A DNA stretch of 64,000 nt, from assembly GCA_014237405.1 (NCBI GenBank), contig JABZFO010000062.1, forward strand, positions 1-64,000, read 5' to 3'. The translations under genes and the position numbers were made by a program. The first letter of the stretch is position 1. Every line of letters starts with the position of its first letter. Of this stretch, positions 41,356 through 64,000 are shown piece after piece. Below the pieces are notes generated by a model. It was not told where the DNA came from. It worked only from the letters and a program-made list of their open reading frames with translations, and searched no databases. This DNA is from Desulfosarcina sp. GTDB taxonomy: Bacteria > Desulfobacterota > Desulfobacteria > Desulfobacterales > Desulfosarcinaceae.

Positions 41356-42031
41356 ATGAGCAATCGCATACCACTGATTGCAGGCAACTGGAAGATGCAC
41401 AAAACAGGTTCCCAGGCCGGGGAGGCCGCCAGCCAGTTGAAACGCCTGGTCGAAAAAGCCACGGACGTGGAGGTGATGATAGCCCCCACTCACACCGCCC
41501 TCTATCAGGTGGTCCAGGCGCTCAAAGGCAGCGCCATCGCCCTGGGTGCCCAGAATCTTTACTGGGAGAAACAGGGCGCATTCACCGGTGAAATATCATC
41601 GGAGATGCTGGTGGATGCCGGTTGCAGCCATGTTATCATCGGTCACTCCGAACGGCGACAGTTCTTTGGCGAAACCGATGCAACCGTTAATCGGAAAATT
41701 CAGGCCGCTCTTTCGGCGAGTCTTATCCCGGTGTTCTGCATTGGTGAAACAGAGGCGGAGCGCGAGGCCGGCGAGACATTTTCCGTACTTGACAAACAGG
41801 TTCACCGCCACCAGAGAACAGGCCCAGGAGGTTCATCAGTTTATCCGGTCACTGCTCGAAACACTGTTTGGGAAGCCGTTTGCCAGTGCCGTTCGCATCC
41901 TTTACGGAGGAAGTGTAAAACCGGATAACGTCCGGGCACTCATGGAGATGCCCGATGTGGACGGCGCCTTGGTAGGTGGGGCCAGCCTGGACCCCGAAAC
42001 GTTCAGCAAACTGGTATTTTTTAATCATTGA
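41356..42031 (+). pseudogene. tpiA: triosephosphate isomerase with an internal deletion and frameshift
   Basis: The first frame reads MSNRIPLIAGNWKMHK (catalytic lysine), then [22 protein letters not shown] (catalytic histidine) and stays normal to [10 protein letters not shown]. It then leaves the family and stops at 41928. A second frame resumes with [19 protein letters not shown] and [12 protein letters not shown]...[10 protein letters not shown] to the stop at 42031. Between the two parts relatives have about 30-35 residues including the YEPVWAIGTGK loop with the catalytic glutamate, so roughly 100 bases are absent near 41800-41810, with a net frameshift. The gene as written cannot work, but central metabolism makes a real loss unlikely. 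Upstream GGAGA precedes the ATG. Confidence 0.88.
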
Positions 42032-42399: not shown

Positions 42400-42486
42400 G
42401 CCGAGGTGGTGGAATCTGGTAGACACGCTATCTTGAGGGGGTAGTGGCCAACGGCCGTGCGGGTTCAAGTCCCGCTCTCGGCACCA
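42400..42486 (+). tRNA. tRNA-Leu (anticodon GAG)
   Basis: An 87-base class II tRNA with encoded CCA. The acceptor ends GCCGAGG and CTCGGC pair; the anticodon stem CTATC/GGTAG holds the loop TTGAGGG (anticodon GAG), a long variable arm follows, and the T arm reads GGGTTCAAGTCCC. The 3' part is intact. Tyrosine integrases of the type found just downstream commonly use the 3' end of a tRNA-Leu gene as attachment site, so this marks the left boundary of the island. Confidence 0.95.
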
Positions 42487-42501: not shown

Positions 42502-42537
42502 GAGCGGTTTCAGTAGGTTACTGGAACCGCTTTTCAT
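42502..42537 (+). terminator. hairpin after the tRNA
   Basis: GCGGTTTCAGT pairs with ACTGGAACCGC (one mismatch) around a five-base loop, followed by TTTTCATTT. It ends the secG-tRNA unit and overlaps the last codons of the converging integrase gene. Confidence 0.75.
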
Positions 42538-43787
42538 TTATATGCAAAAATATGCGTTTTTCGTACAGGGTTTGGACCAGCATCGAGCCCCTTTTCCACA
42601 CCCAACAGTGCCGCTTCAAGATCCCGCCTCCCCTCCCCCGGCGTCCAGTGACAATAGATGTCCATGGTAATGGAAATTGAACTATGTCCCAGCTGGCGCT
42701 GGACATAACCCGGACTCTGATGCGCCATGAGCAGGACAGTGGCATAGGTGTGCCGCAGATCATGGGGGTTGCGGATCCTTAACCCGGCTTTTTTGCACAC
42801 CCGCTTTAAAAGCATCTGAATTTTCCGCTGACTGTATGGCCAAGGCCCATTCTCGTCAGGGTCGATGAAAAGCAGATCCACTCGTCCTCCCCCCCTGCCC
42901 GCTTTCAGTAACTTTTTTCGAAGGTGCACCACATATTTCTGAAGCTCTTCTGCGAGAAAGGCCGGCAGGTCAACGAGTCGGTTATTACCGGACTTCGGCG
43001 TTTTGAACGATTTGAGCTTGTACCCTTGAGAAACAAAATAAGTCATTTTAGCAAAATCAAGATGCTCAAATCGCATGGCCAGAACCTCGCCGAGCCTCAG
43101 GCCTGCATAGGCCATGACCTTCAGAATCAGCTGCTGGTCCCACGGGCAAAATAGCTTAGCGCAGGAAAGAAACAGATCCCGGTCTTGCCGATTAAACGGA
43201 TCGGAAGGCCTCAAGTACCGCTTTTTCTTTGGCGGCAGAATCTTTTTCAGCAGGCCGGCAGACGGGTTGGCGTTAACAATCCCGTCGTCAACCGCTTCGT
43301 TAAAAATGCCGCTGATCACCGTGTGTATCAGTTCAACGGTTTTTGGGGATCGTTTCACCCGGCGAAGGTGCTGCTTAATATCGGTCCTTGTGATTGCACC
43401 GATCTGTTTTCGATAACAGGCGTGTGGCCAGACGTGCAGCTTCAGGATGGAATCGTAGCGATCATAGGTCCCTTCCTCCCAGCGGCTGGCATTTTCCTCC
43501 AACCACTTTTTGCTGTAGTCAGCGAATACGGGCGTACCAGATACGCTATCCAATTTTTTTCTCGCTTGTCCGCAGTTTACAGCTTGCCTGGCAATCCGTT
43601 CACCCGCCTTGATGGCCTTTGCCAGTGACTCACGACCAGATCCGATGGTTTTGTTTTTCCGATATCCCAATTTGTCAATGAACAAAATCCATTTACCTCT
43701 GCCGTCTTTTCTAACCAGTATACCTTTGGCAATATGGTAAATGGGTCCATGCGCTCCTGCCTTCGGTGAATATTTTCTCCAGGGCAT
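42534..43787 (-). CDS. tyrosine recombinase / integrase
   Basis: A 417-aa site-specific recombinase. The catalytic residues are present: R231 in AYAGLRLGE, H342/R345 in PHDLRHTYAT, H368 in LGHSSISIT and the nucleophile Y378 in MDIYCHW. The N-terminus is an arm-type DNA-binding domain, then the core-binding domain at about 85-190. It is oriented toward the tRNA, the usual geometry when the attachment site is at the tRNA 3' end. Its ATG is 80 bases from the excisionase-like gene. Such an enzyme drives both integration and excision of islands and prophages. Confidence 0.94.
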   Translation of the reverse strand: MPWRKYSPKAGAHGPIYHIAKGILVRKDGRGKWILFIDKLGYRKNKTIGSGRESLAKAIKAGERIARQAVNCGQARKKLDSVSGTPVFADYSKKWLEENASRWEEGTYDRYDSILKLHVWPHACYRKQIGAITRTDIKQHLRRVKRSPKTVELIHTVISGIFNEAVDDGIVNANPSAGLLKKILPPKKKRYLRPSDPFNRQDRDLFLSCAKLFCPWDQQLILKVMAYAGLRLGEVLAMRFEHLDFAKMTYFVSQGYKLKSFKTPKSGNNRLVDLPAFLAEELQKYVVHLRKKLLKAGRGGGRVDLLFIDPDENGPWPYSQRKIQMLLKRVCKKAGLRIRNPHDLRHTYATVLLMAHQSPGYVQRQLGHSSISITMDIYCHWTPGEGRRDLEAALLGVEKGLDAGPNPVRKTHIFAYK

Positions 43788-46437: not shown

Positions 46438-48942
46438 TCAATCTTGAAAATCCTGTGTCGCTGGTGACGGCAATCCAAATGCATCGCATTGCACCCCGCG
46501 CGAATAACAGTAGTCGACAGGGATCAAGATACCCCTCGGACGTCTGCCGCCAATGCGACGTTGTGTTTTTTTTGCGCCATCTATTCGGGCAAGAATGGTT
46601 CCGATTCTAAGTCCCTTGAATTGAGAATTCCAAAGCAATTTTCGGGCAACGACATCAGGCACGATAAAAAGACCATCCCCACACGATGTAATTCCGTTGG
46701 CGCATAAACTGTCAGCGATGTTTGTTGAACTGGCCGCTTCGGGGATGAGTTGCGAAACCGATCGATCAGAAACAAAAAACTTAACGTCTCCTGATTCATC
46801 CACCTTTTCCATCGTAAGATGAACCGTTGAGGACAATATGGTATCAAAAACGTTGTCTTCATCATCAGGGATGGCATCCTGCTGCTGGATCTTATAATCT
46901 TCGAGTGTGTCTTCCATCAGCGTCGCTAAACAGGTACGGCTATCTTCTTCGCGTGCTGCAATCATGGAAAGAGGTACGGCGAAGCTTTCATGCAGTCTGT
47001 TGGAAATTCCATGAATCGGTTCCACACTTTTAACCAATTCTCTTGAGCGGTATGAGGCCCAGAGCACATAAGCCAGGATCCGTTCACGAAGCGCTCCACT
47101 TTCTTCTAATGAAGGGATAATGGGCATACGGCTTTGATCCTTTTTCGTTTCAATACAAATGAACCGTGATTCTTCTGCGGATCGCGCCAATCCCATCTCA
47201 ATGCTGGCAAAAAGAACCATATGGCGAAGGCTGTAGTGGATTGCTTTTTGAGTGGTGGTGCCTTTCGGGATGATCCCACCCCTATTTGCACTTCTGATGA
47301 CCTCGATAATTTTATCCCTTGAGTCGGTTTTCTCAAATTCATCTATCATGTATAAACTGGCACTATAGCCAATGTCCTGCCGAAACGCTGCCTCGGTGAG
47401 TGTTTGCCCCTCCCGCCTCATGCTAAGCGCTCCGCCCAGCCTTTCGAGTAGTTCAATAAGTGTGGTCTTTCCAGTCTCAGAGCCACCGGAAAGCCATAGA
47501 TGAGGCCGCCAGTCCCAAATTTTTTGAATCCACTGGGCTAAGAACCATCCTGCAATCAGGAAAGCTGTTGATTGTCCGACAAATCCCCAGCGGTTTATCA
47601 AAACCAACAGTTCTTCGACGATATCAAAAGCAAAATCATAGTTCATTCCTTCCAGTTTTTTCTTAACGGATTGGAAACGAACCCATCTTTTGGCTTTTAT
47701 TCTCTCAATTACCTTTTTGTTTATGATCGTTTCTTCATATTGGGATATCCGTTCACCGTTCCAAATAAATGCGTCGCAGCCATTAACAATCAGCAAAGCA
47801 TCATTATCGATCAGGTGAACGCCTTGCCCCAATAAAGCCAACTGGCCCATCTGGTTTTTTGCCGCTTCCTTTATGATATAAGCCTTCAATATTCTAAATG
47901 GAATTTTTCCATCTTCCGGAGATTTCTCTCTCAGATACACCCGGCGATCGACTTCATCCCCCCCTATTTGCAGCATCTTGTCGAAAGTGAGATCCCTGAG
48001 GCTTACTGAGTATATTTTCTTATTGGTAGTACTTTCCAAAACAATCCTTTCTGCTTCATCCTCACCATGAATTTTAAAGGCATCGAATTTAAAAACGTCT
48101 TCCTGCTTTTTATGATTGTCATGGTTACTCAATTTTGCCGCGTCTGGTATGACGGGTAGCGATTCGAGCATCATTTGTTTAAACTTTTCGACTGGATTTG
48201 GATCCGCCCTTAATACTTCATCGACATCCTTGAATCCTTCCGGAATTATCACTATTTTAGGAGTACCCCTTCCAGCTAAAATTGCATTTGTATATTTTTT
48301 GGTATACTGCCGACCGGCATCATCGTTATCAAAGCATAGATAGAATGTCTTTTGGTTGGCGTTTTTGCGTAGCCATTTTAGTATGTTGGACGTATTGAAA
48401 TTGCCAAGCGTGCAAACAACAGATTCCCAACCAGCTTTGCCGGCTACGGACAATAAATCATTTTCTCCCTCTACGATGACGATCGTGGACGTGGATGTAA
48501 GATTATCCTGGCCAAAACACAGCCAACCAGGAACGGCGCATGATTTTTTTATCTGATACCTATATTTACCTGACGGATCTTTAATACTGAAATGACCAAT
48601 TTCTCCTTCAACATAGTGAGGAAACACATACATTCCAGATGCAATGACAGGCCTTGTAGAATTACCGGTTGTCTTTGCCAATCCGATTGAAATCAAATCG
48701 TTAATATCCTGCCCCAGTGATTTTATGTGGCCGATCAAGTCACCCGAAGCAAATCCCACAAGAAACCTATTCAAACAATCCATGGAATGACCCCTCTCAT
48801 CGATCAGATATGAAAGCGCATCTTTTTTCTCTAAAAGCTTTTGATGATAGTATGTAGCAACAGCTTTTCTAAGTTGACCATAACGATGATCAGATTTTTC
48901 AGCGTCTTTATCTGGTTTTTCTGTAGTAAAAGGGTGTTCCAT
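46438..48942 (-). CDS. TOPRIM primase-helicase of a mobile element
   Basis: The 834-aa protein has a TOPRIM primase (EGEND at about 158-162 and DNDDAG at 205-210) and a C-terminal P-loop ATPase with SGGSETGKTTLI (486-494) and YMIDEFEKTD (531-540). The order fits a primase fused to a replicative helicase, as in phage satellites and integrative elements. Its zinc-binding domain is absent and is found on the small gene upstream. The start is ATG at 48942. It likely starts replication of the element after excision. No deletion is apparent. Confidence 0.82.
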   Translation of the reverse strand: MEHPFTTEKPDKDAEKSDHRYGQLRKAVATYYHQKLLEKKDALSYLIDERGHSMDCLNRFLVGFASGDLIGHIKSLGQDINDLISIGLAKTTGNSTRPVIASGMYVFPHYVEGEIGHFSIKDPSGKYRYQIKKSCAVPGWLCFGQDNLTSTSTIVIVEGENDLLSVAGKAGWESVVCTLGNFNTSNILKWLRKNANQKTFYLCFDNDDAGRQYTKKYTNAILAGRGTPKIVIIPEGFKDVDEVLRADPNPVEKFKQMMLESLPVIPDAAKLSNHDNHKKQEDVFKFDAFKIHGEDEAERIVLESTTNKKIYSVSLRDLTFDKMLQIGGDEVDRRVYLREKSPEDGKIPFRILKAYIIKEAAKNQMGQLALLGQGVHLIDNDALLIVNGCDAFIWNGERISQYEETIINKKVIERIKAKRWVRFQSVKKKLEGMNYDFAFDIVEELLVLINRWGFVGQSTAFLIAGWFLAQWIQKIWDWRPHLWLSGGSETGKTTLIELLERLGGALSMRREGQTLTEAAFRQDIGYSASLYMIDEFEKTDSRDKIIEVIRSANRGGIIPKGTTTQKAIHYSLRHMVLFASIEMGLARSAEESRFICIETKKDQSRMPIIPSLEESGALRERILAYVLWASYRSRELVKSVEPIHGISNRLHESFAVPLSMIAAREEDSRTCLATLMEDTLEDYKIQQQDAIPDDEDNVFDTILSSTVHLTMEKVDESGDVKFFVSDRSVSQLIPEAASSTNIADSLCANGITSCGDGLFIVPDVVARKLLWNSQFKGLRIGTILARIDGAKKTQRRIGGRRPRGILIPVDYCYSRGVQCDAFGLPSPATQDFQD

Positions 48943-51643: not shown

Positions 51644-54627
51644 TTAATTAAGCGACAGGTAACTTATCTCACCATAACACACCCAGTGAATGGCTACACC
51701 AACCATGAACAAGCCCACGCCTTCAGAAGCAGCCCTGGCATAGCAATCCAGCTGAGGCCAATACCGCAGAAATCGCTCTTCACGCTCATCGGTTTCATCC
51801 GATTTGTGATCGATAATCCAATACCCGTCGTTCGTTTCAAACAACAGATCGATCGTACCATTGATGACACTACCGGCCTTGTCCGCCGCCACAATAGGTA
51901 CTTCCCACCTGGCGCGCTCTGCGGGAAGGAACTTCCTGGCATAATAACTCAAGGGCACGGTGAACGATAAGACCACGCTCGGCACCCGAAGAAAGCGTCA
52001 ATTCTACAGGAGGGCCGTACTCAATGGTCGTGACCGCCAAAGGCTCCTGCCCCATTTCCTGGCCGTGAAGGCTCGATGGGGTTAAAAACGCCGGGGTCAA
52101 GTGTGCTGGGGGTGGTTCGGCCTGCAGCGCCCTTCTGCCTAAAACGGGAAGCGTGCTCGACAATGGCGTTGCCGGTTGTTCAAAATCCGCAGGTGGTTCT
52201 TTGTCGGCGGCGGTCACCCGGCAACCAAAGGATGTGTCGCCGACCCACATCTGGTTGGCCTCAAGCCGCATTTTGGCAGTATCGCACAGCAGATGCCAGA
52301 ACGTGTAGCGTGTGCTTGATGCCAGGTTTTGCGGCCACTCCAGTAACAGCTGTTCTCTTGCTCTGGTCAGGGCCACGTAAAGCAGATTCAGCCCTTCCTC
52401 GCGAGCCTTGGCGTCCAGTCTGCTTTCAAAGCGTTAAACCCGTGTACGCAATGTCCAGGCTCGGCAGGCGGCCTTTGACATCCCGATCCAGAGTCGTCAC
52501 AACGACAATCGGCCACTCCATGCCTTTGGCTGCATGCCAGGTGACCAACTGGACGGCTTCTTCGTCGTGCACGTGGGGCGCCGGCTGGCGGTCACCATTC
52601 TTTTCTTCCAGGATACGTCGCAGCCATGCGAGAAAGGTTTTTAAACCGGCCCCGTAAAAGCCGCCTCCCGCCAGTGCCTCCCGATCGGCCTTTACAAATG
52701 CGTCAGCCTCGGCTTGGAATCGCAGCAGGTTGGCGCGCGCCTGTCCGGCATCGGGCCAGGTCGAGATGACGTCATAAAGCGCCATGGCGTCTATTGTTTG
52801 AGCCACCAGTTCTTCTACGCCCAGGTCGTCCTGGTCGTTGGCGATGGTCTCTAATAGATCCAGCAACGGCAGATTAAGCCGCTCTCCCTTCATCAAGGTG
52901 GCTGTTGCCGAACTTAAGTCGTCATTTCCCAATTCGGTCACCGCCAGGTACAAAGCGGCATGCCTGTCACCGGGATCCGCCACCAGACTCAAGCCATGAT
53001 ACAACAACTGGACGGGCCGGCTCGAAAACCAGCCGTCCTGCTCCAGTTGCGAACGGATCCCGATGGCGGTCAGCACTTCGGCGTAGGTTTTCAATCGGTT
53101 GTGGGTCAGTCCGAGGATGGCGATATCCTCGCCGCGCACCGGCCGGTGTTGTTTCAAGCGGGGATCATAAACGAGCGTTCGATTGTCGGACAGGATGGCT
53201 TTGATGCGCGCGGCGACGTGTTGGGCCTGAACCTTGGCATTGATGCCTTTGCCTTCGAAGGAAATTGCATCCAGCGCCGACAGCTGGCTGGTAAAAGGAG
53301 CTTGAGGCACAAGGCGGGTGTAATGGTCCCCGAACATCCTGTCACCAATGGCGTTGACAACCTCCATCAAAGGCGCCTGGGAGCGCCAGTTGCTGTTCAA
53401 CGGCTGGCATTGCTCACGATGCTGCACCATCAAACTGCGCATCAGCCGGGGATCGGCCGACTGAAATCCCATAATCGACTGCTTGACATCCCCCACAACG
53501 AGGGCCGGCACCCCCTGCTGGTGCAGTCTCCAGAGCAAGGAAAACTGCAGGGGGTTGGTATCTTGAAACTCGTCGATGACCAGACAGTCGAATCGCCGGG
53601 CAGCATGTTCGCGCACCTCGGGGATGTCGAGCAGTTGCCGGGCCAGGTCGATCATGTCAGTATAGTCGATAATACCTCGATCCCGTTTGCGTTGGGCATA
53701 ATCGGCCAAGGCGTCCCAGGCCGATTCCAAAAGCACCGCCGCGTGCTGTTGGGCATCGGCCAGCGGTCCCGGGTGCGTGCACAGCTCACCGGCATGGGCT
53801 TTCACCTCGCGGGCCAGGTCCTGATAGTCGGCCGGCAGCTGCTTGTCGGTCTTAAACACCTTGAGTTCTTGCAACTTTTTCCAGAGCAACCAGTTAAAAT
53901 CCAGCGCCGACGTACCGTCCGCTTCTTGAAGCCAGCGAAAATCTGCTTCGACCGCCGTTTTAGCGCTATCGGACTTTACGAAGTCACGCATGCAGGTGGG
54001 GTACTTTTTCAGCAGACGCCCGATGCTGCGCCTCAACGGTATGGTCAGCACGTCGGCAGCTTCCGTGGGACCGTAGGTCTGCTCGATGAAGCGCAGTGCG
54101 TGACCCAGGCGAGAAGAACGATGCAAATCACCGCCGATCACCCGCAGCATCTGTACGCATTCCAGAATCCGGTTGCGAAACAGTCCGGCACTGTCGGTCT
54201 GGCTGACGAAATCATAGCGGTAGCCGAACAACTCCAGCCGGCGGCTGATGCTTTCAATTCGCTCGATCCTGGCGATGGCCTTGCGTAGCAGCAATCCCTC
54301 TTCGTCTTCCCCCAACAGGCGGGAGGCGGGGCAGCATTGGGCTTCGAAGGCATACTCCACCAACAGCCGGTTGCCAAAACCGTGGATGGTGGTGATGAAC
54401 GACTGGTCCAGCCGCAGGGCATCCTCTATTCGATCACGGGCCATCAGCGTGGTTCGAATACGGTTACGCAGCTCGCTCGCAGCCGTCTCGGTAAAAGTTA
54501 CCGCGGCGATGCGATCCGGTCTCACCATGCCGGACTCCACCCAGTCGGCCAGCTGCTCCTTGATCCGGTAGGTCTTGCCGGACCCCGCACCAGCCGGAAC
54601 CATAACCAACGATGGCAGCCTGCTCAT
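51644..54627 (-). pseudogene. AddA-like UvrD-family helicase-nuclease, split by two gaps
   Basis: Three frames join into one protein. The first, from ATG 54627 (overlapping the addB stop as ATGA), has VPAGAGSGKTYR (motif I), VIDEFQDTNPLQ (II), VVGDVKQSIMGFQ (III), SNWRSQAPL (IV) and LVTWHAAKGMEWP (V); it stops near 52426. The second frame resumes at NLLYVALTRAREQ (VI) and ends in GLIVHRALELLCQ. The third carries WEVPIVAADKAGSVI, NGTIDLLF and WIIDHKSDE, the PD-(D/E)xK nuclease core. At both joins (near 52430 and 51940) family sequence is missing with a frameshift. AddA unwinds DNA and cuts one strand in the AddAB end-processing enzyme. Joined, it would work with the upstream AddB-like gene. 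Confidence 0.78.
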
Positions 54628-57104
54628 GATTTTTCCTCCACGGCATGCATAAACAATCGCAGCAACGGGCTGTTGTCCAGCGCGTAGATCGGAATGCTGG
54701 CATGCTTGTCCCACCAAATTTCATCTTCAGTGGTGTTGAGACGCACCTTGCCGATGCGGATCTCATCCAAACGTTTGTCCAAATGCTGCATGGCTTCAGA
54801 GGAGATGTCGGTATTCAGGATCTCCAGTCCGGGTGTGGTTCCTTGTACTGCAATGGTGCTGTCGGACAGTGCGGTCAAATCGTTCATGAGGTAATAGACC
54901 ACTCCGATATCCGCCGGTGAGGTTCCAAACGCCGGCAGGCCGCCGGTTTGAATCATCAGGCGGTAAAGGTGGGCCTGCAGGTCGAAGCGGCTGCGCATGC
55001 GCTTGCGGCGTTTGGCGCTGGAGGATTTTTTATAATCCACGACCAGCAGCTTGCCGGATGGCAACTGCAACACCAGGTCGCTTTGGCCCCTTATGGGAAT
55101 CTTGTTGTAATCTCCCCGTAACCACTGTTCGGTGGCCACCACCCTGGCGCCCCAGGACGCCAGCAAATCCCGCCAGCGCACCGCGGCTTCAACGATCTCT
55201 GTTTCAAGCTTGAGCCGTTCAACCCGCCAGTCCGGGCTGCGCAGGAACGGAGCCAACTGCAAGGTCAGTTGCTTCAGAAGCGTTGGTGCCTGCTGGCGAA
55301 TGGCATCGGCATCGATCAATGGCTGGTCCGCGGGAAAGAGTTCCTCGAACACCCCATGGGCCAGTGTCCCGGCGGTCATCGGGTCCAGGCTGTCCGTCGA
55401 CCACTCCCTGGGTTCGCAATGCAGTCGTCTCAGCAGCCAGGCAAAAGGCGATACCATACGGGCTCATCCGCAGCTGCGATGGACAATTCGTGGATTTGAT
55501 TGCGGTCATCCCGCCGGTCGAGTTCCAGTACCATGTCATCGGGTTCAAGGCCGAAGCGGCGCGCCAGGAAAACCAGGCTGCTGGAAGGTTCCAGGGTGTC
55601 GCCGGCAGCGTCCCGGCGAGAAAATAGAATGGTGAGGTTGTCTGTGGCCGCTGAAATCTGACGGGCAAAAAGATTACGTTGCCGCTGCCTTGCTTTCTCG
55701 GCGGTGATCACCGGCCATCCGCACACGGCCACGCTTTCCCATTCAGCTTCCGTCAGCACGGCCGAGGCCCTGCCCCCACCGGGGAAATGACCATCGTTGA
55801 ACCCGAGCACCAACAGATGTTTTACCGTACGCCAGGGCTCTCGGCCTTCATGAAAAACCACAACTCCCTCTTGCCAATAGTGCCGCTCGTCAACGGTGTG
55901 AAGGGACTCGGGCTGGGTTGCGGAGAGCAGGCGCTCCCATTGCAGGTCAGTCATGCCTTTCAGGGTGCTTAATAGCAGATCCACACAAACCAGGGCACGC
56001 TGCCGATGATCAGGCAGCCTGTCGCCGGCTTCCAGCAGCCGTCTGAAGGTTTTCAAATGTTTTTGCAGGTCTGTAGGTGTATCAGCGCCCTGGTCAACCA
56101 GATCCATCAACCGTCTCGAATCGGCATCGAGCTGCCTGTTTTTAAGCAGCACATCCCCGTTCATCACAGCCTGGGCGTACTCCTGGCCATCGGAGGCGAA
56201 CCGCTTCTTTACCCAGGTCGCGGTGCCTTATGGAACGCTCCAGGCCGGAAAGGGGCAGGCCGCAGCGGTCGAATACCGTCTCCACCGTCTGAACTGTGAA
56301 TTCATCGCGGGGCAACAAGATGCCGTAATTGCAGGCCTCGCCGCCATGGACCAGCGTTTTTTGGATAATACCTGCCGCCACCTCGATTTCCTCCAAGCGA
56401 TCGCGGACGGCCAGCACGCGCAGGCTGTTATCCGACTGGACCGGTTCATCACTGGGTTGGTACAAGGATCGGGCGGCCGACAGCGCGGATCTTGAGGTTT
56501 TCACTGCCTCCAGTGCTTCGGTCAGCAAGATCTGCAAATCGTTGTTGTTAGGTGGTGCATCTTCAGCCAATTTAGCCAAAACAGCTTCCTGCCAGGGGTT
56601 CAATTCCGGAAAGCCCGGTAGGTGGTATAGCCGCAATGGACGAAGCGGAGGTTGGTCGACTTTCAGGAGATCGCTCATCACCTGGAAATGGTCGGGGAGG
56701 GTATCGATTGTTTCAAGCAGGCTGTAAAGCTGGCAAAGGCGCTGTTGACAACGGGAAGGCTGTGGCAGCCGATTTAGAAATGTCGGCCAATCTGCATTGG
56801 GGCCAGCACCTTCTATCAGACGTTTCAATGCGGCATCCAGTTCCGCTAACGTTTCTAATGGCGCAACTTCCAGGCTGCCTGCCCAGAAACCATTGGGATG
56901 TCGGGCGGCGCATTCAGCGAGTTTTTCGGGCCACGAGGAGGAATTTAGTGGCAACAGATAGGCAGCATGCGCCTGGGCCATCAATTCTGCCCATGATCCG
57001 GCAATTCGATACAGGCCCGGGGCTTTGTAGGACAAAAACTTTCGAACCCTCCGGCTGCTTGGACCGTCAGGCGTGAGAAGAAAATCGACCACGATATTTT
57101 TCAA
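54624..57104 (-). pseudogene. AddB-like nuclease subunit, split by two gaps
   Basis: Three overlapping frames make one protein. The first (57104-56142, TTG start with GGGAG upstream) is the inactive helicase-like N-terminus up to IRHRDLGKEAV. The second resumes at SDGQEYAQAVMNGDVLL and has HLLVLGFNDGHFPGG. The third starts VSPFAWLLRRLH and includes GTLAHGVFEELF, RGQSDLVLQLPSGKLLVVDYKKS, the PD-(D/E)xK core. Joins lie near 56200 and 55455; in each, a stretch of relatives' sequence is missing and the frame changes. It lacks a full set of helicase motifs, as AddB does. I also see no clear iron-sulfur cysteines. It should pair with the AddA-like gene that overlaps its stop. Confidence 0.72.
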
Positions 57105-57158
57105 AAAAATCTCCCTGCCTACGTTGAATTTGCGTTTAATTTCAGTCTATTTTCATGA

Positions 57159-58742
57159 TTAAACCATGTCCTTATCTACGTAATAACCACTTATATTGAG
57201 AATTTTTTCGTTAGCTACCAAATCTTCGACCGCACCAGGCGGGATGATTTCACCAATGTCGATGCAGGGAAAGCTTAAACCATATGCAACTGACATTCGG
57301 TGATAATCTCGCGGCGGTATATCTGCAGTTTCAAGATTTACAGGTTTGGGTAGCTGCTTTTGATCAAATCCGGAAAAGGCCGCGTGGGATAACCGTTTTT
57401 GTGCATGAGGGATAATGTTTTTATACATACCAATCTGCGAACCACCGCCGCATAAAAAAACTGGCAATCCTTCCTGCCATGCCGGTGAATTAGGGTTTCT
57501 CCTAAATCTTGATTCTTTGATCACTTTACGAACAACCCTGGAGCATTCAACCATGAATTCTTCGTTGTTTTTCCGATAATCCCTCAAAGCCTCCCGCGAA
57601 AGAGCTGGAAAATACTTTTCAATATTTGGAAGGGGGGCAATTCCGTCATAGGCCAAACCGAGGGTTCTTAGTGCTTTCTGTCTGAAGTTTTCGGCCTCAG
57701 CAGTACTAATAAATTTTCTTATGATCGTCTCAGCACATGCTATCCTGTAGTTGTGAAAGATCGATGCGCCGAGTTTTTCCACCTCAGCGACTAAAATTGT
57801 ATAAAGATCTTCACCGTCGCTCTCGTGTATAATAAAGTTAGACACGTCAATAGTTGTAGCCCCTACGTCAACAATCAGGTACATCCCGTCTTGACGCATT
57901 GGCGAACGAGCGTAACCAACTACCTGGGCGATAATTTCAGGAATTGAGCAGATATTATCCGGATGTAGTTGCTGCGCCTCCTCATCGAATATATTTTCTG
58001 AGAGCTGACGATCTGCAGAGACCATGGCGATTTTCACTTCGCTCACATTTATCTCGTCAACTGGCTTCAATGTTAGGTTCCACCCGGCCAACGCCAGTCG
58101 CTCCATCTGACTTTTAAGAATTTTATCAGCATAGCTTCGGGACGACATACCGATATTTAACTGCCAATCGATCTTAACGCCTTGATAATCAGAACGTTTC
58201 TCTTGCCAGAACCATTCTCTAATTTTCCGTAGCACCAGTCCGATATATGCGCTTGTGGCTTCAGCTGCCGTCAATGTGACACCATTAAAAGGACCGATCG
58301 ATTGGTCGGGGTTCTGAAGAAATTTTATCTTGAGAGCGTCAAATAATTCACCACCTTGGCCTAAAATGAGATTGCCATCATAGTCAACAGCAATTGCAGT
58401 CGGCAGTAAATAGGGGTTGCCGGCACATCCCACACCATTAAAGGGAACCGCATAGGCTTTTTTTAACACTCCGTCCTGGATGATAACTTTGGTACAGGAT
58501 GTTCCAAAATCAAAGCCGATTACGATGTCAGTTTCTCTGGTAGGGTTTTTTCCATACATCTGCCATGAAAGTTTTGTTGACTTGCGCTGCCCACCTTCCT
58601 GGAATTGCTTTGTTGCTGGTTTTTTTGGCGACACATAAGGCTCGATTTCTGCTGAAACGGTCACCTCATCAGATTGTTTTGAATCTTTAATAGACGTTTC
58701 GGAAACACTAAGAAGCCTCTTAATAAATTTGAACAATCCCAA
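57159..58742 (-). CDS. Hsp70/actin-like ATPase coupled to the SNF2 helicase
   Basis: The 527-aa protein shows the actin-fold phosphate-1 loop IGFDFGTSCTKV (about 75-86), phosphate-2 LIVDVGATTIDVSNF (about 284-298) and the adenosine motif VFLCGGGSQIG (about 455-465). It lacks the long DnaK peptide-binding domain and has a 65-residue polar N-terminal extension. Its TTG start lies 23 bases inside the SNF2 helicase gene with AAGGAG at good distance, so translation is coupled. The role is unknown: it could be a nucleotide-driven switch for the helicase or a chaperone of the complex. Hsp70-like proteins in defence islands are known to occur. Confidence 0.75.
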   Translation of the reverse strand: MGLFKFIKRLLSVSETSIKDSKQSDEVTVSAEIEPYVSPKKPATKQFQEGGQRKSTKLSWQMYGKNPTRETDIVIGFDFGTSCTKVIIQDGVLKKAYAVPFNGVGCAGNPYLLPTAIAVDYDGNLILGQGGELFDALKIKFLQNPDQSIGPFNGVTLTAAEATSAYIGLVLRKIREWFWQEKRSDYQGVKIDWQLNIGMSSRSYADKILKSQMERLALAGWNLTLKPVDEINVSEVKIAMVSADRQLSENIFDEEAQQLHPDNICSIPEIIAQVVGYARSPMRQDGMYLIVDVGATTIDVSNFIIHESDGEDLYTILVAEVEKLGASIFHNYRIACAETIIRKFISTAEAENFRQKALRTLGLAYDGIAPLPNIEKYFPALSREALRDYRKNNEEFMVECSRVVRKVIKESRFRRNPNSPAWQEGLPVFLCGGGSQIGMYKNIIPHAQKRLSHAAFSGFDQKQLPKPVNLETADIPPRDYHRMSVAYGLSFPCIDIGEIIPPGAVEDLVANEKILNISGYYVDKDMV

Positions 58743-61700
58743 TGCAGATCTCCTTCTTGTGGTGTTTCAAAATCCGGCGTTCTTGGATTTCTCTCAGCTT
58801 TTGGTCAACCCGGCTTTTCATGGCGGTTATACGCCCTTTGGTCATTCGCGCTATCTTTTCGTTGCCGATCTGCCTCTGCAGTATGGCGTTTAATTTTTCC
58901 AACTGTCTTTCCAAATGTCTTTTAAGAGCCTTTTCCTGAACATCGGCACGGTCATTGTTCTCCGCTTCGATCCGGCGGATAAATCGATCGTAACTATTTT
59001 CGGCGTTTTCCTGACATTGTTCGACGTGTTCATGGAGATCGGCCGTTTGGACTTTCGTCGTCGGTTGCAGCCAATCCCTTCCGCTCCTTGCAGATACGGT
59101 GATTAACTTTTCCCCAATATCCTCTGGCAAAAACTCCTGAGAATTTCCAAGAGTATTAACTGATACATGTAGTTTTTCGATTGCCCGAATACCTAAGACC
59201 GACCACCGTTCAACCACGAACGCATAGACACCACGGGGTAGCTCCGGCATCTGTTCATGTTCCAATGAGACACTCACAGGCGAATAATAACTAAAATCTG
59301 ACGCACCAATGCGATCGCTAACAAAGCGGACCAAAGGATGCATTTGGTTAATGGTTTCGACAAGACCTGGCCGACGATCAGCAACCTGATTCTGAAAAAT
59401 ACACCGAACCGTGGAGGGGTATACGGAACCAAGACGTGTCTTGCCTCGAAGGTGGGCTTTCGTCAAAAACTGATCGAGATCGAATTTGGCTTGAGCTGAC
59501 AGTTTCACCTTAAATTCGAGTTCATCTGCTTTGAGCTGTAAAAACTCAGATCCTTGGTACTCGCGGACAAAAAAATCATAAATATAGTTCCAGATATCCT
59601 CGCTTGATATGTTGCGCTGGAGTTCGCGAGCAGCCTTAACCTGATTCAATATGTAGTCCCCGTGGGCAACTAGGTCTACCGCCTCGTTTTCCAGCCGTTC
59701 ATCCAGGTTCAGCAAGATGGATATGGCCTGCTCGGTTTGCTCGATCCTGGATTCCTCTTGCTCAGCTGTCAGGTTCCCGGTAAGCAAATCATCGGTTAGC
59801 TTTCGGATTTGATCACCCAGGATCGCTTCGAGTCCACCCAGCGCTTGTTCGAAAATCCCGAGGCGTTCGTACAACCTAGTGTATATCCGTTCGTCAATGG
59901 TATCGGCATATAACAAGTTCCAGATGGTTATGGTTGGCGACTGTTGCCCCAGGCGATCGATACGCCCAATCCGCTGCTCGACTTTCATGGGGTTCCAAGG
60001 CAGGTCATAATTGACAAGAAGCCTTGAAAACTGAAGATCTACACCTTCACTGGCCACTTCCGAGGACAAAAGAACGCTTGGGCCGTCCGCTTTTTGAAAC
60101 TGATCAAGGATATCGTTTTTGTCAATTCCCTGCCCCCCCATGAGCACGACACTGGAAATACCGTCAGCCTCCAGACGCCTGCTAAGATAGCGTAGTGTGG
60201 GCCTGAAGTAGGAAAAAAGCACAATTTTCTCTTTTGGGTGTTGGTTCAAGTACCTGGTTAGCATCTCCTTGAGACGGTTATATTTGGAATCGTTGGCACG
60301 AATGGTATTTAAATTGCCCATTTCGTGCGCATTTTCGACCAACACCCTCGTCAGTGGACCTAAGTCGGGACGGTTGTTGCCGTTGTTAAAACCCAGGTCT
60401 TCGTAAAGCTGTTCGTCATCGACAGAGCCTCTACGCAACCATTGCTCCAGAGCAGCTGGCATGGAACTGGACATCTGGCGCTGAGGCGTCACCAGCAAAA
60501 ACCCTTCTGGCCCGTCATATTGGAGTGCGTAATTGCGGATCAATTCAGTTACGAGTTTGTAAAAACCTCTCTCTTCGGAAGACATCGGCACCACTTCCGC
60601 CACAACCTCTCGCACTACACGCCACTCAGTCACATCTCGCTTGCGGGTACGATTCACGAGGCGACCCAATAGATTTATGGATTCGAGTCGATCCGCCAAT
60701 ACCGTTCGATACTTCCGATCGAGCAAATCCGCTTCCGATGGTGGACTATCGATAATACCTTGTATCTGTCTGTTGTTTTCGAAATATGGGGTTTCTTTGG
60801 CGGCGGCAAGCATTGTCAACAGTTGTACCTGATCGATATTGCCGGCCAAAATTTGATCTCTTGCCCGAACAAGGGGTTCGTTGGCCTGTAGGATTTCTTC
60901 GAAAACATGAGGCTGGTTGAAGGTATCCTCGTCTACAAGATTGAGCAATTGATAAAGGTCCGCGCTACGCAAATGGACGGGTGTCGCTGAAAGCAAAACG
61001 ACATGCTCCGAAACCGAACGAAGCAACCGACCTAGCTTGGAAGTCATGCTTTCAGGGTTTCTCAAATAATGAGCCTCATCTACAATCAGCAGATCGAACA
61101 GAGGCTCCTCATATTGGCTGTCATCCATCATTCGAGCAAGGGTCGATGCCGCATCTTGCCCGCCATCGTCTTTTGACCAGCCTCTTCTCGGGCGAAGCCC
61201 CTGCATACTGCAGATCATGGCGTATTCCAGCCGCTCGCCCAGCCTGTAATCTTGAATCTGCTCAAGCACCTCTGAAGCACCCAGGATGTCTCCATCTATG
61301 CCAAAACGACGTCGCAATTCAGTCTTCCATTTTTCCCGCAACATTGCCGGACATAGCACCATTACGCGACGGATATCAAAACGGCTTCTCAGCTCGGTCC
61401 AGATCAAACCGGCTTCAATGGTCTTGCCGAGGCCTACCTCATCGGCAACTAAAAGACCGTTACCAGGTGCATCTAAAAAGTTGAGCACCGGCTTGAATTG
61501 GTAAGCATAAAAGTCGGTGTTGGTTGTGTCCATACTGTAGATCAGATTGGCTAATCGGCCGGTGAGTCGGATATGGGTAATCCCCCCGCGCAAATCCTTG
61601 GCGCGGCCGAACTTGCCTTGCCCTAGTAAATCTAAAGGATCATAATCTTGTGCGGAAATCACTTCAAGGTAGGAATCTCGTTGGTATTCTGCCCCTTCGG

Positions 61701-61842
61701 GAAAACGAACTTGCCAAAGGGTCTTTCCTGCACGTTGGCGGGTTCTTCCAGTAATTACACCGACGCGACCTGGGTCTGACTTTAACCTTACAATTGTGCC
61801 GGGTTCAAAATTTTCACCATGATTGTCATTATTATCATCCAT
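58720..61842 (-). CDS. RapA/HepA-like SNF2 helicase
   Basis: A 1040-aa protein. An N-terminal KOW/SH3-like domain (EPGTIVRLKSDPGRVGVITG) is followed by the SF2/SNF2 core: LLVADEVGLGKTIEAG (motif I), LLIVDEAHYLRN (II), VVLLSATPVH (III), IVLFSYFRPTLRYLSR (IV), SSEVASEGVDLQ (V) and VEQRIGRIDRLGQ (VI). A long coiled-coil C-terminus (ERQLEKLNAILQRQ...) ends the protein. SNF2 proteins move along double-stranded DNA; DISARM-type DrmD is a SNF2 member, but the partner set here is different. It is full length with no gap. The start is ATG at 61842, 85 bases after the PLD-like gene. Confidence 0.88.
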   Translation of the reverse strand: MDDNNDNHGENFEPGTIVRLKSDPGRVGVITGRTRQRAGKTLWQVRFPEGAEYQRDSYLEVISAQDYDPLDLLGQGKFGRAKDLRGGITHIRLTGRLANLIYSMDTTNTDFYAYQFKPVLNFLDAPGNGLLVADEVGLGKTIEAGLIWTELRSRFDIRRVMVLCPAMLREKWKTELRRRFGIDGDILGASEVLEQIQDYRLGERLEYAMICSMQGLRPRRGWSKDDGGQDAASTLARMMDDSQYEEPLFDLLIVDEAHYLRNPESMTSKLGRLLRSVSEHVVLLSATPVHLRSADLYQLLNLVDEDTFNQPHVFEEILQANEPLVRARDQILAGNIDQVQLLTMLAAAKETPYFENNRQIQGIIDSPPSEADLLDRKYRTVLADRLESINLLGRLVNRTRKRDVTEWRVVREVVAEVVPMSSEERGFYKLVTELIRNYALQYDGPEGFLLVTPQRQMSSSMPAALEQWLRRGSVDDEQLYEDLGFNNGNNRPDLGPLTRVLVENAHEMGNLNTIRANDSKYNRLKEMLTRYLNQHPKEKIVLFSYFRPTLRYLSRRLEADGISSVVLMGGQGIDKNDILDQFQKADGPSVLLSSEVASEGVDLQFSRLLVNYDLPWNPMKVEQRIGRIDRLGQQSPTITIWNLLYADTIDERIYTRLYERLGIFEQALGGLEAILGDQIRKLTDDLLTGNLTAEQEESRIEQTEQAISILLNLDERLENEAVDLVAHGDYILNQVKAARELQRNISSEDIWNYIYDFFVREYQGSEFLQLKADELEFKVKLSAQAKFDLDQFLTKAHLRGKTRLGSVYPSTVRCIFQNQVADRRPGLVETINQMHPLVRFVSDRIGASDFSYYSPVSVSLEHEQMPELPRGVYAFVVERWSVLGIRAIEKLHVSVNTLGNSQEFLPEDIGEKLITVSARSGRDWLQPTTKVQTADLHEHVEQCQENAENSYDRFIRRIEAENNDRADVQEKALKRHLERQLEKLNAILQRQIGNEKIARMTKGRITAMKSRVDQKLREIQERRILKHHKKEICIGIVQIY

Positions 61843-61926
61843 TTGGCCAAATGGTCCTAATTACAATAGTAATTTCTATATAAACGAGATTAGAAAGCAT
61901 TAACTTTCGCACCATATGTCCTTCAT

Positions 61927-63192
61927 TTATTGTTTCGCTTCACCAGCAGCTTTGAATTCACTGTATGCTTTATCCCAATCTACATTTGGGAAAGCTATTT
62001 TAATCGAATCAAAAAAATCTTTCTGATTTAATGTTTCGAAAGTCACATCTTTAAATCGAACTATGAGCTTCATTTCCTTGGTAAGCGATTCTGATTTTGG
62101 GAAGCAACGCTCCAATTCGGAATTTAGCCATCGTTTAGCATCTTCATCAGATGGATTCCCATTCAAAGATTGACCGATTAGCTCGTCAGGTGGGGTTTTA
62201 ATGACTATGGGAAGATAATAATCAACAATCTGCTGGCGTGAGCCATCAAGCTGTTCCTGAAGTTTTTCTTTAACATTTTTTTTATAAGCATCAAGCTTTT
62301 CGCGAAATTCTTCTAATCGCTTATTCAAATATGGTTTGACGGATTTCAGCACCACTCTTCCGTGGTCCTTGCCTAAGGATGGCGTGAGGTTATTACGTAT
62401 GTCATTAAGCTGATTTTCAAGTGCCCTAGACGATAGTTTGCTGTTCCTTTCAATCAACTCGATGGTTGTCCGCAAGCGACCTTCCAAATCTGTGCTTCCT
62501 CCAAGTTTCAGGATACTCGGCGGTATCACCAACCGGTGTCTCTGAATGGCGGCGCCCGATAGGATCAGATCAACATATTGGATATATGGCTGGAACACAC
62601 TCACCTGCCGCGCAACATCAAACTTAACCGGAGGTGCTGTTTTCAAACTATTATCTACCTGGTTGAATTGCTCATTTCTCACTTGGATGGAGCCAACTTC
62701 AACGGGGAGTTCGGCAATCCGTCTTTTTTCCTCTGGGGTTGTGGCCATTGCTACGGCTATCTCTTTGGCAACTGGCGATAGTCTTGCTTGCGCCTCTGCC
62801 GCTTGGTCATGGGAGAGGCGCAATGCGTTGAGGGCGGCATCGTTTTCGGACTCAGCCTCAAGGTAAAGCGGGGTTGGAGTGAAAATGTAACCCTCGCCGT
62901 CGACGATCAACAAGGCGCTACGAAGCCCAGGTGCATGATTCACAGTAACGCCGACTTTGCGTAAACGCCTCACCGCATCGATGACACCGTAGCCCATGCG
63001 CATCACTCGCTCATCGAAATCAACACAAACAGTAAGCATTTCCGGTCCTAGCCTTTCCGCCACGTTGACCATCGAATCGGCTGGTTTGGCTTGAATACCT
63101 GGCCCGGCGTAGCACACAGAGTGCTTGGTGTTTCTAATCATCTCGGCAATACGGGTTGAGGACAAATGGCAGAACAGTGTGTTGGTCTTCAT
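61927..63192 (-). CDS. PLD-like fold protein lacking the HKD motif, with a coiled-coil C-terminus
   Basis: The 421-aa protein has a PLD-like N-terminal layout: AEMIRNTKHSVCYAGPGI, VCVDFDERVMRMGYGVIDAVRRLRKVGVTV and then LRSALLIVDGEGYIFTPTPLY where active phospholipase-D-type nucleases have H.K.....D and GS.N. The residues for catalysis are replaced (L-R-S instead of H-x-K), so it should be inactive as a nuclease. From residue 290 on it is charged, helical and predicted coiled coil. The ATG at 63192 has GAGG upstream; the frame to 63258 adds a tail. It lies between the S24 protein and the helicase, so may be a structural or DNA-binding subunit. Confidence 0.6.
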   Translation of the reverse strand: MKTNTLFCHLSSTRIAEMIRNTKHSVCYAGPGIQAKPADSMVNVAERLGPEMLTVCVDFDERVMRMGYGVIDAVRRLRKVGVTVNHAPGLRSALLIVDGEGYIFTPTPLYLEAESENDAALNALRLSHDQAAEAQARLSPVAKEIAVAMATTPEEKRRIAELPVEVGSIQVRNEQFNQVDNSLKTAPPVKFDVARQVSVFQPYIQYVDLILSGAAIQRHRLVIPPSILKLGGSTDLEGRLRTTIELIERNSKLSSRALENQLNDIRNNLTPSLGKDHGRVVLKSVKPYLNKRLEEFREKLDAYKKNVKEKLQEQLDGSRQQIVDYYLPIVIKTPPDELIGQSLNGNPSDEDAKRWLNSELERCFPKSESLTKEMKLIVRFKDVTFETLNQKDFFDSIKIAFPNVDWDKAYSEFKAAGEAKQ

Positions 63193-63268
63193 ACAGCGGC
63201 CTCTATTTATTCGGGAATTGACAGAGCATCTCGATATAACCGGAACAATTGTCACCAATACTTACGAT

Positions 63269-64000
63269 CTACCCAAGCACCTCTAAAAACTCTGCAACCA
63301 CCTCAATTTTACCCTCGTCCTCACAGGTCAATTCAATGGGGGTGAAGTCCGGGTTACGCGGCTTTAAAATAATCTTCAGGTGGCGCCAGCCACCGTCATC
63401 AGATGCGATCTTTTCGCTCTTATAAATCTTTACCGTGTATCGTTCTCCGGTTTCAGGGTCTACCTCGTCGCTTAATTGGACAACGACCGTCCTGTCCTGG
63501 CGTGTCCCAGTGACAGGTGTCGAAAACAGGCAGTACGACTTGTCAGGGATCAAGGGCTCCATTGATTTGCCAACGACTTGAGCGACAAACATCCCAGGTC
63601 TAATTCGGCGGTGCGTATCGATTTCAACCCACTCCCAACTGTCATGGTCAAAATGCTGTGGATCGCTGAACGCACCGGCAGCAAATTTGAGGGGGACAAG
63701 AGGAACGCAGGTGCTGAAGTAGTTCTCGGATTTTGGGTGGACAAGCCGATATACAGATCTCGTTTCTAATCTGGTTTTCTTTTCTGCGCGACCAAACCAA
63801 CTGGTATCATCCTTAATCGAATTCCTGATGTCATCCGCACGCAAGTACCCGGCCAGTCGACGAAAGTGCCTGATCATTGCACCTTGGTCGTCCAAATCTG
63901 ATACAGCGATTTCTATGACCTCGTACCCGTTGTTTCGGAGCCAGGTTCGTATTCTCTGGTCCTTTTCTGCGGTTTTGGTATTTCCGTGGATATGATTGCT
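63269..64000 (-). CDS. C-terminal part of a larger protein: nuclease-like segment fused to an S24 (LexA-like) peptidase; N-terminus off the right edge
   Basis: The frame is open to the window edge, so the gene is partial and the TTG at 63893-63895 is not a real start. The first 55 visible residues (NTKTAEKDQRIRTWLRNNGYEVIEI, then SDLDDQGAMIRHFRRLAGYL) resemble the C-terminal VSR/PD-(D/E)xK-like segment found at the ends of DEAD/DEAH-DUF1998 helicases. Then come 150 residues with the S24 layout: FVAQVVGKSMEPLIPDKSY with the serine and YTVKIYKSEK with the partner lysine. S24 peptidases self-cleave on RecA-DNA signals in SOS regulation. A fusion of this sort would link damage sensing to a nuclease-helicase. 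The upstream helicase identity is inference, since it lies outside the window. Confidence 0.7.
   Translation of the reverse strand, partial: SNHIHGNTKTAEKDQRIRTWLRNNGYEVIEIAVSDLDDQGAMIRHFRRLAGYLRADDIRNSIKDDTSWFGRAEKKTRLETRSVYRLVHPKSENYFSTCVPLVPLKFAAGAFSDPQHFDHDSWEWVEIDTHRRIRPGMFVAQVVGKSMEPLIPDKSYCLFSTPVTGTRQDRTVVVQLSDEVDPETGERYTVKIYKSEKIASDDGGWRHLKIILKPRNPDFTPIELTCEDEGKIEVVAEFLEVLG

Follow-up and report, generated by a model that had tools for sequence, protein, structure and literature searches.

We analyzed a 64,000-nucleotide stretch of DNA from Desulfosarcina sp. (the window: positions 1 to 64,000 of contig JABZFO010000062.1, hereafter C98, of a metagenome-assembled genome, or MAG), and in particular six genes at its right end. 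We propose, with moderate confidence, that these genes belong to an ARMADA-class restriction system that is carried by an integrative element at a tRNA-Leu gene and has been enlarged by accessory modules. On our best reading, the six genes are only the 3' end of a longer operon, which is split over three contigs of the incomplete genome. They are transcribed from the minus strand in the order S24-bearing protein (its end), PLD-like protein, SNF2 helicase, Hsp70-like ATPase, AddB, and AddA:

63269-64000, minus strand: end of a YprA-family (ArmC-like) helicase, with the end of a nuclease-like region and the S24 domain; runs on to contig position 64639 (MZB domain) and then, by homology, onto contig C95
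63305-63688, minus strand: S24 peptidase domain (span of Pfam PF00717), with Ala-Ala-Gly at about 63674-63682, Ser at 63563-63565, and Lys at 63428-63430 (positions derived by hand from the open reading frame, or ORF)
61927-63192, minus strand: PLD-like protein of 421 amino acids, without an HKD motif in this copy; fold not established
58720-61842, minus strand: SNF2 helicase, DrmD-like; Walker A, DEAH, and motif VI present
57159-58742, minus strand: Hsp70-like (ASKHA) ATPase; phosphate-1, phosphate-2, and adenosine motifs present
54624-57104, minus strand: AddB-like protein with a C-terminal PDDEXK nuclease, in three frames (57104-56142, 56167-55430, and 55457-54624)
51644-54627, minus strand: AddA-like UvrD helicase with a C-terminal PDDEXK domain, in three frames (54627-52426, 52376-51870, and 51985-51644)

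An earlier note, made from the window alone, had described six genes on one strand with tight joins. Indeed, the SNF2 and Hsp70-like genes overlap by 23 bases, and the stop codon of addB and the ATG of addA share ATGA at 54624-54627. The remaining gaps, measured from ORF ends and checked ATG codons, are 76 bp (YprA C-terminus to PLD-like), 84 bp (PLD-like to SNF2), and 54 bp (Hsp70-like to AddB). All of the listed genes are present, but neither AddB nor AddA is an intact ORF (both are in three pieces), and the first gene is not complete, as it is truncated by the window edge. The same note could not place the set with confidence in DISARM, BREX, Zorya, or Druantia. This we would revise: two further contigs of the MAG, C95 and C167, supply a SNF2 helicase, a methyltransferase, and a YprA helicase. 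In a preprint by Bell et al. (2025; PMC12458937), ARMADA is defined by these three components: a SNF2/RapA-like helicase, a methyltransferase, and a YprA helicase.

Core genes on three contigs

The earlier note had proposed extending the contig to the right. C98 continues for just 639 bp beyond the window, and this extension encodes an MZB zinc domain (MrfA-type, DUF1998) ahead of the nuclease-like region and the S24 domain. Thus, the first gene is the C-terminus of a YprA-family helicase. C95 of this MAG was identified by its match to the N-terminal helicase of a relative on a Synechocystis plasmid (53% identity, E = 4e-160). It encodes the N-terminal part of a YprA-family helicase (about 1,400 residues), with the DEAD and Helicase_C domains; the MZB domain is on C98. 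Two ORFs of C95 align to residues 45-588 (59% identical) and 616-1446 (54%) of a 1801-amino-acid protein from another genome (G286), and the C98 piece aligns to residues 1518-1800 (48%) of the same protein.

Upstream on C95 are AbiEii, AbiEi, and the C-terminus of a large methyltransferase. The remainder of the methyltransferase is on C167: along a single methyltransferase profile, the match to C167 reaches position 1270 and the match to C95 begins at position 1268. C167 also encodes a WYL regulator, a RecD-like helicase (PADLOC PDC-S68, 1697 bits), and a SNF2/RapA-like helicase of 1058 amino acids (ArmA-like) whose gene overlaps the methyltransferase (ArmB-like) gene. PADLOC names this SNF2 protein DrmD and also BrxHII. 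We infer the joins C167-C95-C98, so that the AbiE genes sit between the ArmB-like and ArmC-like genes. The earlier remark that no methylase or DrmB was seen is correct within the window; just outside it, both a methyltransferase and a DrmB-type zinc domain are present.

The core recurs elsewhere. In G286 the three core genes are adjacent and uninterrupted, and they are 50% (SNF2, ArmA), 46% (methyltransferase, ArmB), and 48-59% (YprA) identical to those of the present locus. The Synechocystis B12 plasmid has the same ArmA-ArmB-ArmC order, and a Natrinema plasmid has an annotated helicase-methyltransferase-helicase trio. As a reference we used genes of E. coli ATCC 8739, which we took as ARMADA from their content and their place between tRNA-Phe and Zorya; compared to these, the present proteins are 28% (ArmA, E = 1e-48), 22% (ArmB, E = 4e-27), and 37% (ArmC, E = 4e-37) identical.

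In a tree of YprA helicases (15 rows with long branches, and with 39% of columns filled for the window's row), the window's helicase grouped with those of G286 and G213 with 100/100 support, and a 100/100 split separated them from the Druantia helicases (four Druantia-side proteins and that of G362). A helicase from contig C100 of the MAG, which was entered as the outgroup, grouped with the E. coli ArmC and adjoins an ArmD-like gene, so the tree has no true outgroup. This gene pair (C100, 32000-42116, L279; ArmC-like, 32%, and ArmD-like, 35%) may be a second, Type II-like ARMADA system in the same MAG.

Proposed accessory modules and the probable tRNA-Leu element

The window's own SNF2 helicase matches PADLOC's DrmD profile PDLC02623 over its whole length (926 bits), and it scores 413 bits against NCBIfam's DISARM_DrmD, below that model's cut-off of 610. 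Its neighbor, which the earlier note had called Hsp70-like and an actin-like ATPase, is indeed an Hsp70-like ATPase with intact motifs, and the phosphate and adenosine motifs are invariant in an alignment of nine rows. The best Foldseek match of its structure model (mean pLDDT 75.8) is DnaK (E = 9.5e-14, though the TM-scores are only about 0.4); a profile search found no PDB sequence relative at E ≤ 0.01. No Hsp70 substrate-binding domain is evident in the model, in which residues 1-69 and 509-527 are of low confidence.

The adjacency of these two genes is conserved. We opened the six best of nine plasmid matches to the SNF2 protein, and all six, which include two near-identical Sphingobium loci, have an adjacent Hsp70-like gene. 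From a genome scan with the SNF2 protein, we kept 80 loci among the matches listed. Ten of the 11 closest of these loci (E ≤ 8e-132) have an adjacent Hsp70-like gene (nine by tblastn and L032 by clustering), and the remaining one, L033, ends inside the SNF2 gene. Thus, the pair is present in 16/16 assessable close relatives (6 plasmid and 10 genome loci). In the other 69 loci, many of which have short flanks, tblastn (used here without clustering) gave no Hsp70 match at E ≤ 1e-4. A scan of viral sequences with an alignment of SNF2 proteins yielded 80 loci. The Hsp70-like gene precedes the SNF2 gene in L023 and L036, and in L033 the SNF2 gene follows PDC-S68. In a sample of 395 genomes from the phylum, nine (including the present one) have a match to the Hsp70-like protein; of the eight others we opened seven, and the SNF2 gene was adjacent in five and not in two. 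A WYL-SNF2-Hsp70 row lies at L239:8127-14013 (G337), and its WYL protein is 53% identical to that of C167.

The earlier note had also suggested a self-cleaving peptidase domain, and the S24 domain does have the residues of one: all five proteins that we aligned keep the Ala-Ala-Gly, the VVGxS serine, and the YTxK lysine (five other loci with matches were looked up and left unaligned). We take the Ala-Gly and the Ser-Lys to be the cleavage site and the catalytic pair known from LexA and UmuD. Judging from these residues, the S24 domain probably cuts itself off. The helicases of G286 and Synechocystis end before the S24 domain. Within the MAG itself, an S24 domain 55% identical to the window's forms the C-terminus of an HsdR-type protein (contig C34, L222:4137-7775). 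An HsdR of G323 and Schlafen-group-3 helicases of G052 and G122 bear S24 as well. In two genomes, a MazG-like ORF (recognized by eye) lies directly before an S24-bearing Schlafen-group-3 helicase (L224:6642-9494 and L225:7257-10052).

AddB-AddA had been proposed to be an end-processing nuclease, and by Pfam it does contain a UvrD helicase and two PDDEXK domains, in broken frames. Intact Novosphingobium homologs (903 and 1049 amino acids) align along the whole AddB/AddA stretch, through the breaks. We ruled out that these genes are the host's chromosomal copy: all 31 genomes searched (the MAG and 30 relatives) have UvrD-type matches, and the best one outside the MAG is 35% identical over about 130 residues, so the window's AddAB is not the lineage's own copy. 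Among plasmids, 19 records match AddAB at E ≤ 1e-30, with up to 39% identity. All three plasmids that we opened have AddB ahead of AddA, with a WYL gene directly before the pair, one gene before it, or divergent from it.

The "dead PLD-like subunit" of the earlier note was not confirmed as such. The 421-amino-acid protein has no match to the Pfam PLD families at E ≤ 1 or at E ≤ 5, and a profile search found no sequence relative in the PDB. Its structure model is poor (mean pLDDT 61.8), and Foldseek found no match for it at E ≤ 0.001: LarE takes the top ranks, and PLD6/Zucchini entries come 19th, 38th, and 47th (E = 0.27-0.44, probability 0.69-0.97). From these results, we set the PLD fold aside as unproven. 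The protein also has no DrmC match at E ≤ 1 and no HKD motif. Just 3 of the 395 sampled genomes, counting the present one, encode it. A homolog (48% identical) lies between pglX and pglZ of a BREX locus in Acinetobacter towneri, and the relative in G313 follows a SNF2 gene; beside the relatives in Caballeronia and G386 we saw no SNF2- or ATPase-type neighbor. With an alignment as the query, we found four relatives on viral contigs (55-59% identity), of which two follow a SNF2 gene and two follow an ATPase gene in a methyltransferase cluster; a viral scan with the PLD-like protein alone returned 20 pattern matches, with no relative among them. These four viral loci are the IMG/VR contigs L260-L263, and the position of the PLD-like genes there, beside SNF2 or methyltransferase-type genes, hints at phage- or satellite-borne defense.

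The view that this DNA-processing operon of defense type lies inside a tRNA island is supported by a tRNA-Leu gene and a tyrosine integrase nearby:

42400-42486, plus strand: tRNA-Leu(gag), the likely integration target
42534-43787, minus strand: tyrosine integrase, adjoining tRNA-Leu
46438-48942, minus strand: Toprim-domain protein of the island, which we think is probably a primase/helicase

The tRNA-Leu gene is the one tRNA gene within the window, and the defense genes are 8-9 kb away from the integrase beside it. We searched the MAG for a second copy of the 3' end of tRNA-Leu, and only the tRNA itself was returned. Farther up, on C167, three tandem tyrosine-recombinase-like ORFs lie upstream of the operon (L231:14792-17995; recognized by eye as recombinase-trio-like), and an ARPP-1 protein (L231:12551-13588; PF20208, E = 3e-90) adjoins the WYL regulator.

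One system, separate modules, or a decayed locus

The modules described above recur, and the whole was not found again: a check for co-occurrence found SNF2-Hsp70, AddB-AddA, the PLD-like protein, and S24-helicase fusions in other loci, and it did not find the six genes together in any locus examined. When we compared 89 loci (9 plasmid and 80 genome) to all of the operon's proteins, the ARMADA core was present only in the Synechocystis plasmid, without the SNF2-Hsp70 pair, the PLD-like protein, or AddAB, and a further 21 loci held no such composite. The full combination was seen only at the present locus among the loci examined. Since each search started from one gene and covered the best matches listed, rarer composites may exist.

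This pattern fits a defense island of independent modules (ARMADA core, PLD-like protein, SNF2-Hsp70, and AddB-AddA) that share transcription and have no joint mechanism, to which we assign close to an even chance. The absence of the six-gene set from the 89 and the 21 loci speaks for it, as do AddB-AddA with a nearby WYL gene on all three plasmids opened and the core alone in G286. The SNF2-Hsp70 pair recurs without the other modules in several kinds of locus: inside the BREX operon of a Desulfocapsaceae MAG, where brxC and pglX flank it (L026; 54% and 36% identical); directly after hsdR of a type I restriction-modification (RM) locus (L032); and in L035, where a type III methyltransferase directly precedes it and an ArmD-like helicase follows. 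However, the pair in L026 is inside, not beside, the BREX operon, which suggests functional embedding, and the tight joins in the window (the 23-base overlap, the ATGA, and gaps of 54-84 bp) also speak against independent modules.

Several other observations weigh against an ARMADA system, or against a working one. The element's right-hand attachment site was not found in our search of the MAG. C95 and C98 share no overlap at their ends and about 71 codons are absent between them, so this join rests on homology. The nuclease-like region of the YprA C-terminus, which is conserved in G286, has no Pfam nuclease match. PADLOC names the methyltransferase as type IIG/DrmMI, with no PglX match at E ≤ 1e-10, and its first name for the helicase pieces is DruE. 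The tree, with its 15 rows and long branches, does not separate Type I from Type II. G286, the one intact core locus that we opened, has no AbiE, PLD-like protein, second SNF2, Hsp70-like protein, or AddAB, so the add-on genes may be neighbors rather than parts.

Furthermore, the methyltransferase appears to be interrupted (METHYLTRANSFERASE): at the facing ends of C95 and C167, the methyltransferase similarity ends and an inverted 18-bp sequence starts. This shared sequence ties C95 to C167 and implies that the methyltransferase (ArmB) is probably interrupted, by an apparent insertion element, in the assembled population. Allowing up to one mismatch, 17 bases of the sequence occur at nine genomic sites. 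At seven of the nine, the assembled sequence stops about 100 bp beyond, as expected if copies of an insertion element break contigs. The flanking bases common to both sides are AATAT or fewer, depending on where the end of the element is set. There are also frame breaks in YprA (one), AddB (two), and AddA (two), which argue against a working system.

The locus might thus be decaying and non-functional, with the insertion into the methyltransferase coming first and the helicase and AddB-AddA acquiring their frame breaks later; we regard this as possible and, on balance, somewhat doubtful. The ends of an insertion element in ArmB and the five frame breaks are what such decay would leave. On the other hand, an apparent tpiA (window 41356-42031; identified by eye), a housekeeping gene on the same contig, is also split over two frames, so sequence (indel) errors in this contig are a likely cause of the breaks. 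Also, the ORFs of the PLD-like protein, both SNF2 helicases, the Hsp70-like protein, and the RecD-like helicase are uninterrupted, and catalytic motifs are kept where checked. This copy may be damaged or misassembled, and it is probably impaired. A Druantia-like system, with the YprA helicase as DruE and the rest accessory, is improbable: PADLOC's best profile is DruE3, both for the helicase pieces and for their relative in G286, but PADLOC 2.0 (2023) predates the naming of ARMADA, the tree places the window's helicase across a fully supported split from the Druantia side, and ArmA- and ArmB-like genes are present.

The gene content, the homologies, the domain residues, and the recurrence of the SNF2-Hsp70 pair are computed results. 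If the locus is an enlarged ARMADA system, as we propose, we infer that it could work as follows. In the core, ArmB would mark host DNA by methylation, and ArmA and ArmC would act on unmarked phage DNA, which the nuclease region of ArmC would cut. Self-cleavage of S24, perhaps upon RecA-coated single-stranded DNA, would toggle the helicase-nuclease between two forms, one restrained and one free. The second SNF2 helicase and the Hsp70-like ATPase may work as a pair that uses ATP to remodel DNA-protein complexes; the PLD-like protein would be their non-catalytic partner. AddB-AddA would degrade broken DNA as the element's own RecBCD-like end processor. AbiEi/AbiEii and the RecD-like gene would be further embedded modules, and the WYL regulator would stand at the head. 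One study reports that Druantia III depends on RecD and that its synergy with Zorya II depends on RecBCD (PMC13192584), which makes an operon-borne AddAB plausible.

More tentatively, and we consider this rather unlikely as a whole, there might be two portable control layers that operate across systems: a SNF2-Hsp70 engine (in ARMADA, BREX type I, type I RM, and type III RM), and a self-cleaving S24 switch on restriction helicases that couples their activity to single-stranded DNA or the SOS state, with the operon's AddAB letting the system escape phage inhibitors that target the end processor of the host. If our reading of the locus holds, it illustrates how large defense operons grow by absorbing small portable modules, and S24 on restriction helicases would tie restriction directly to DNA damage signaling. 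An ARMADA system with its own AddAB would also make it directly testable whether YprA-family defense helicases need a RecBCD-type partner to complete their task, as reported for Druantia III with Zorya II (PMC13192584). Two modules merit separate study: the SNF2-Hsp70 pair within several unrelated restriction systems, and the self-cleaving S24 domain on restriction helicases.

Comparison with known systems

The earlier note's reluctance to place the locus in DISARM, BREX, or Druantia is borne out by profile scans and the tree. Like DISARM, the operon has a DrmD-like SNF2 helicase and a DrmMI-like methyltransferase (both by PADLOC) and an MZB/DUF1998 domain. We rejected DISARM because the helicase and MZB read as one protein, with pieces along the 1801-amino-acid protein of G286, rather than as separate DrmA and DrmB, and because there is no DrmC match. 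We rejected BREX because none of the operon proteins scanned matched BrxA, BrxB, BrxC, or PglZ; what is shared with BREX type I is that the SNF2-Hsp70 pair (L026) and a PLD-like homolog (A. towneri) occur within BREX loci. Zorya core genes did not turn up. Druantia was rejected because the window's helicase lies across the 100/100 split from the DruE side, even though DruE is its best PADLOC name. Druantia III also has a YprA-family helicase, and its reported reliance on RecD, and that of its synergy with Zorya II on RecBCD (PMC13192584), is a precedent for a RecBCD-like partner.

We recognized no open-license paper in PMC as describing the SNF2-Hsp70 pair, the fusions of S24 to restriction proteins, or an AddAB within such an operon. 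A 2026 survey of BREX (PMC12839542) has no occurrences of "hsp70", "askha", or "s24", and "hsp70" and "s24" do not occur in the main text of PMC12458937. In CoCoNuT (PMC11090510), CnuD is likewise an Hsp70-like ATPase in a restriction operon; there, it is tied to McrBC-type GTPases and to predicted RNA targeting, whereas here the Hsp70-like ATPase is a separate gene beside a SNF2 helicase.

Like the S24 peptidases LexA and UmuD, the window's S24 domain keeps the Ala-Gly site, the Ser, and the Lys; unlike in those proteins, S24 here is a C-terminal appendix of restriction-type helicases (ArmC-like, HsdR, and Schlafen-group-3). Similarly, the window's AddB-AddA shares the UvrD helicase and two PDDEXK domains with AddAB helicase-nucleases but is not the host's own, and the nearest relatives that we found are plasmid pairs at 39% identity.

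The system that the locus most resembles is ARMADA (PMC12458937). Both have SNF2/RapA-like, methyltransferase, and YprA genes in the order ArmA-ArmB-ArmC, and both are carried by mobile elements that adjoin tRNA genes (in E. coli, those for tRNA-Phe and tRNA-Leu). ARMADA's SNF2 helicase is of the BrxHII/RapA kind and its methyltransferase is PglX-like, and its YprA helicase has a BrxA-like insert, zinc modules, and a Vsr-type nuclease domain at the C-terminus. As in Type II, a UvrD helicase gene lies downstream; here, the downstream genes are AddB-AddA rather than a GajB-like ArmD with a RelE domain. The present locus further differs from ARMADA in having S24 on ArmC, an AbiE pair between ArmB and ArmC, a second SNF2 helicase with an Hsp70-like ATPase, and the PLD-like protein.

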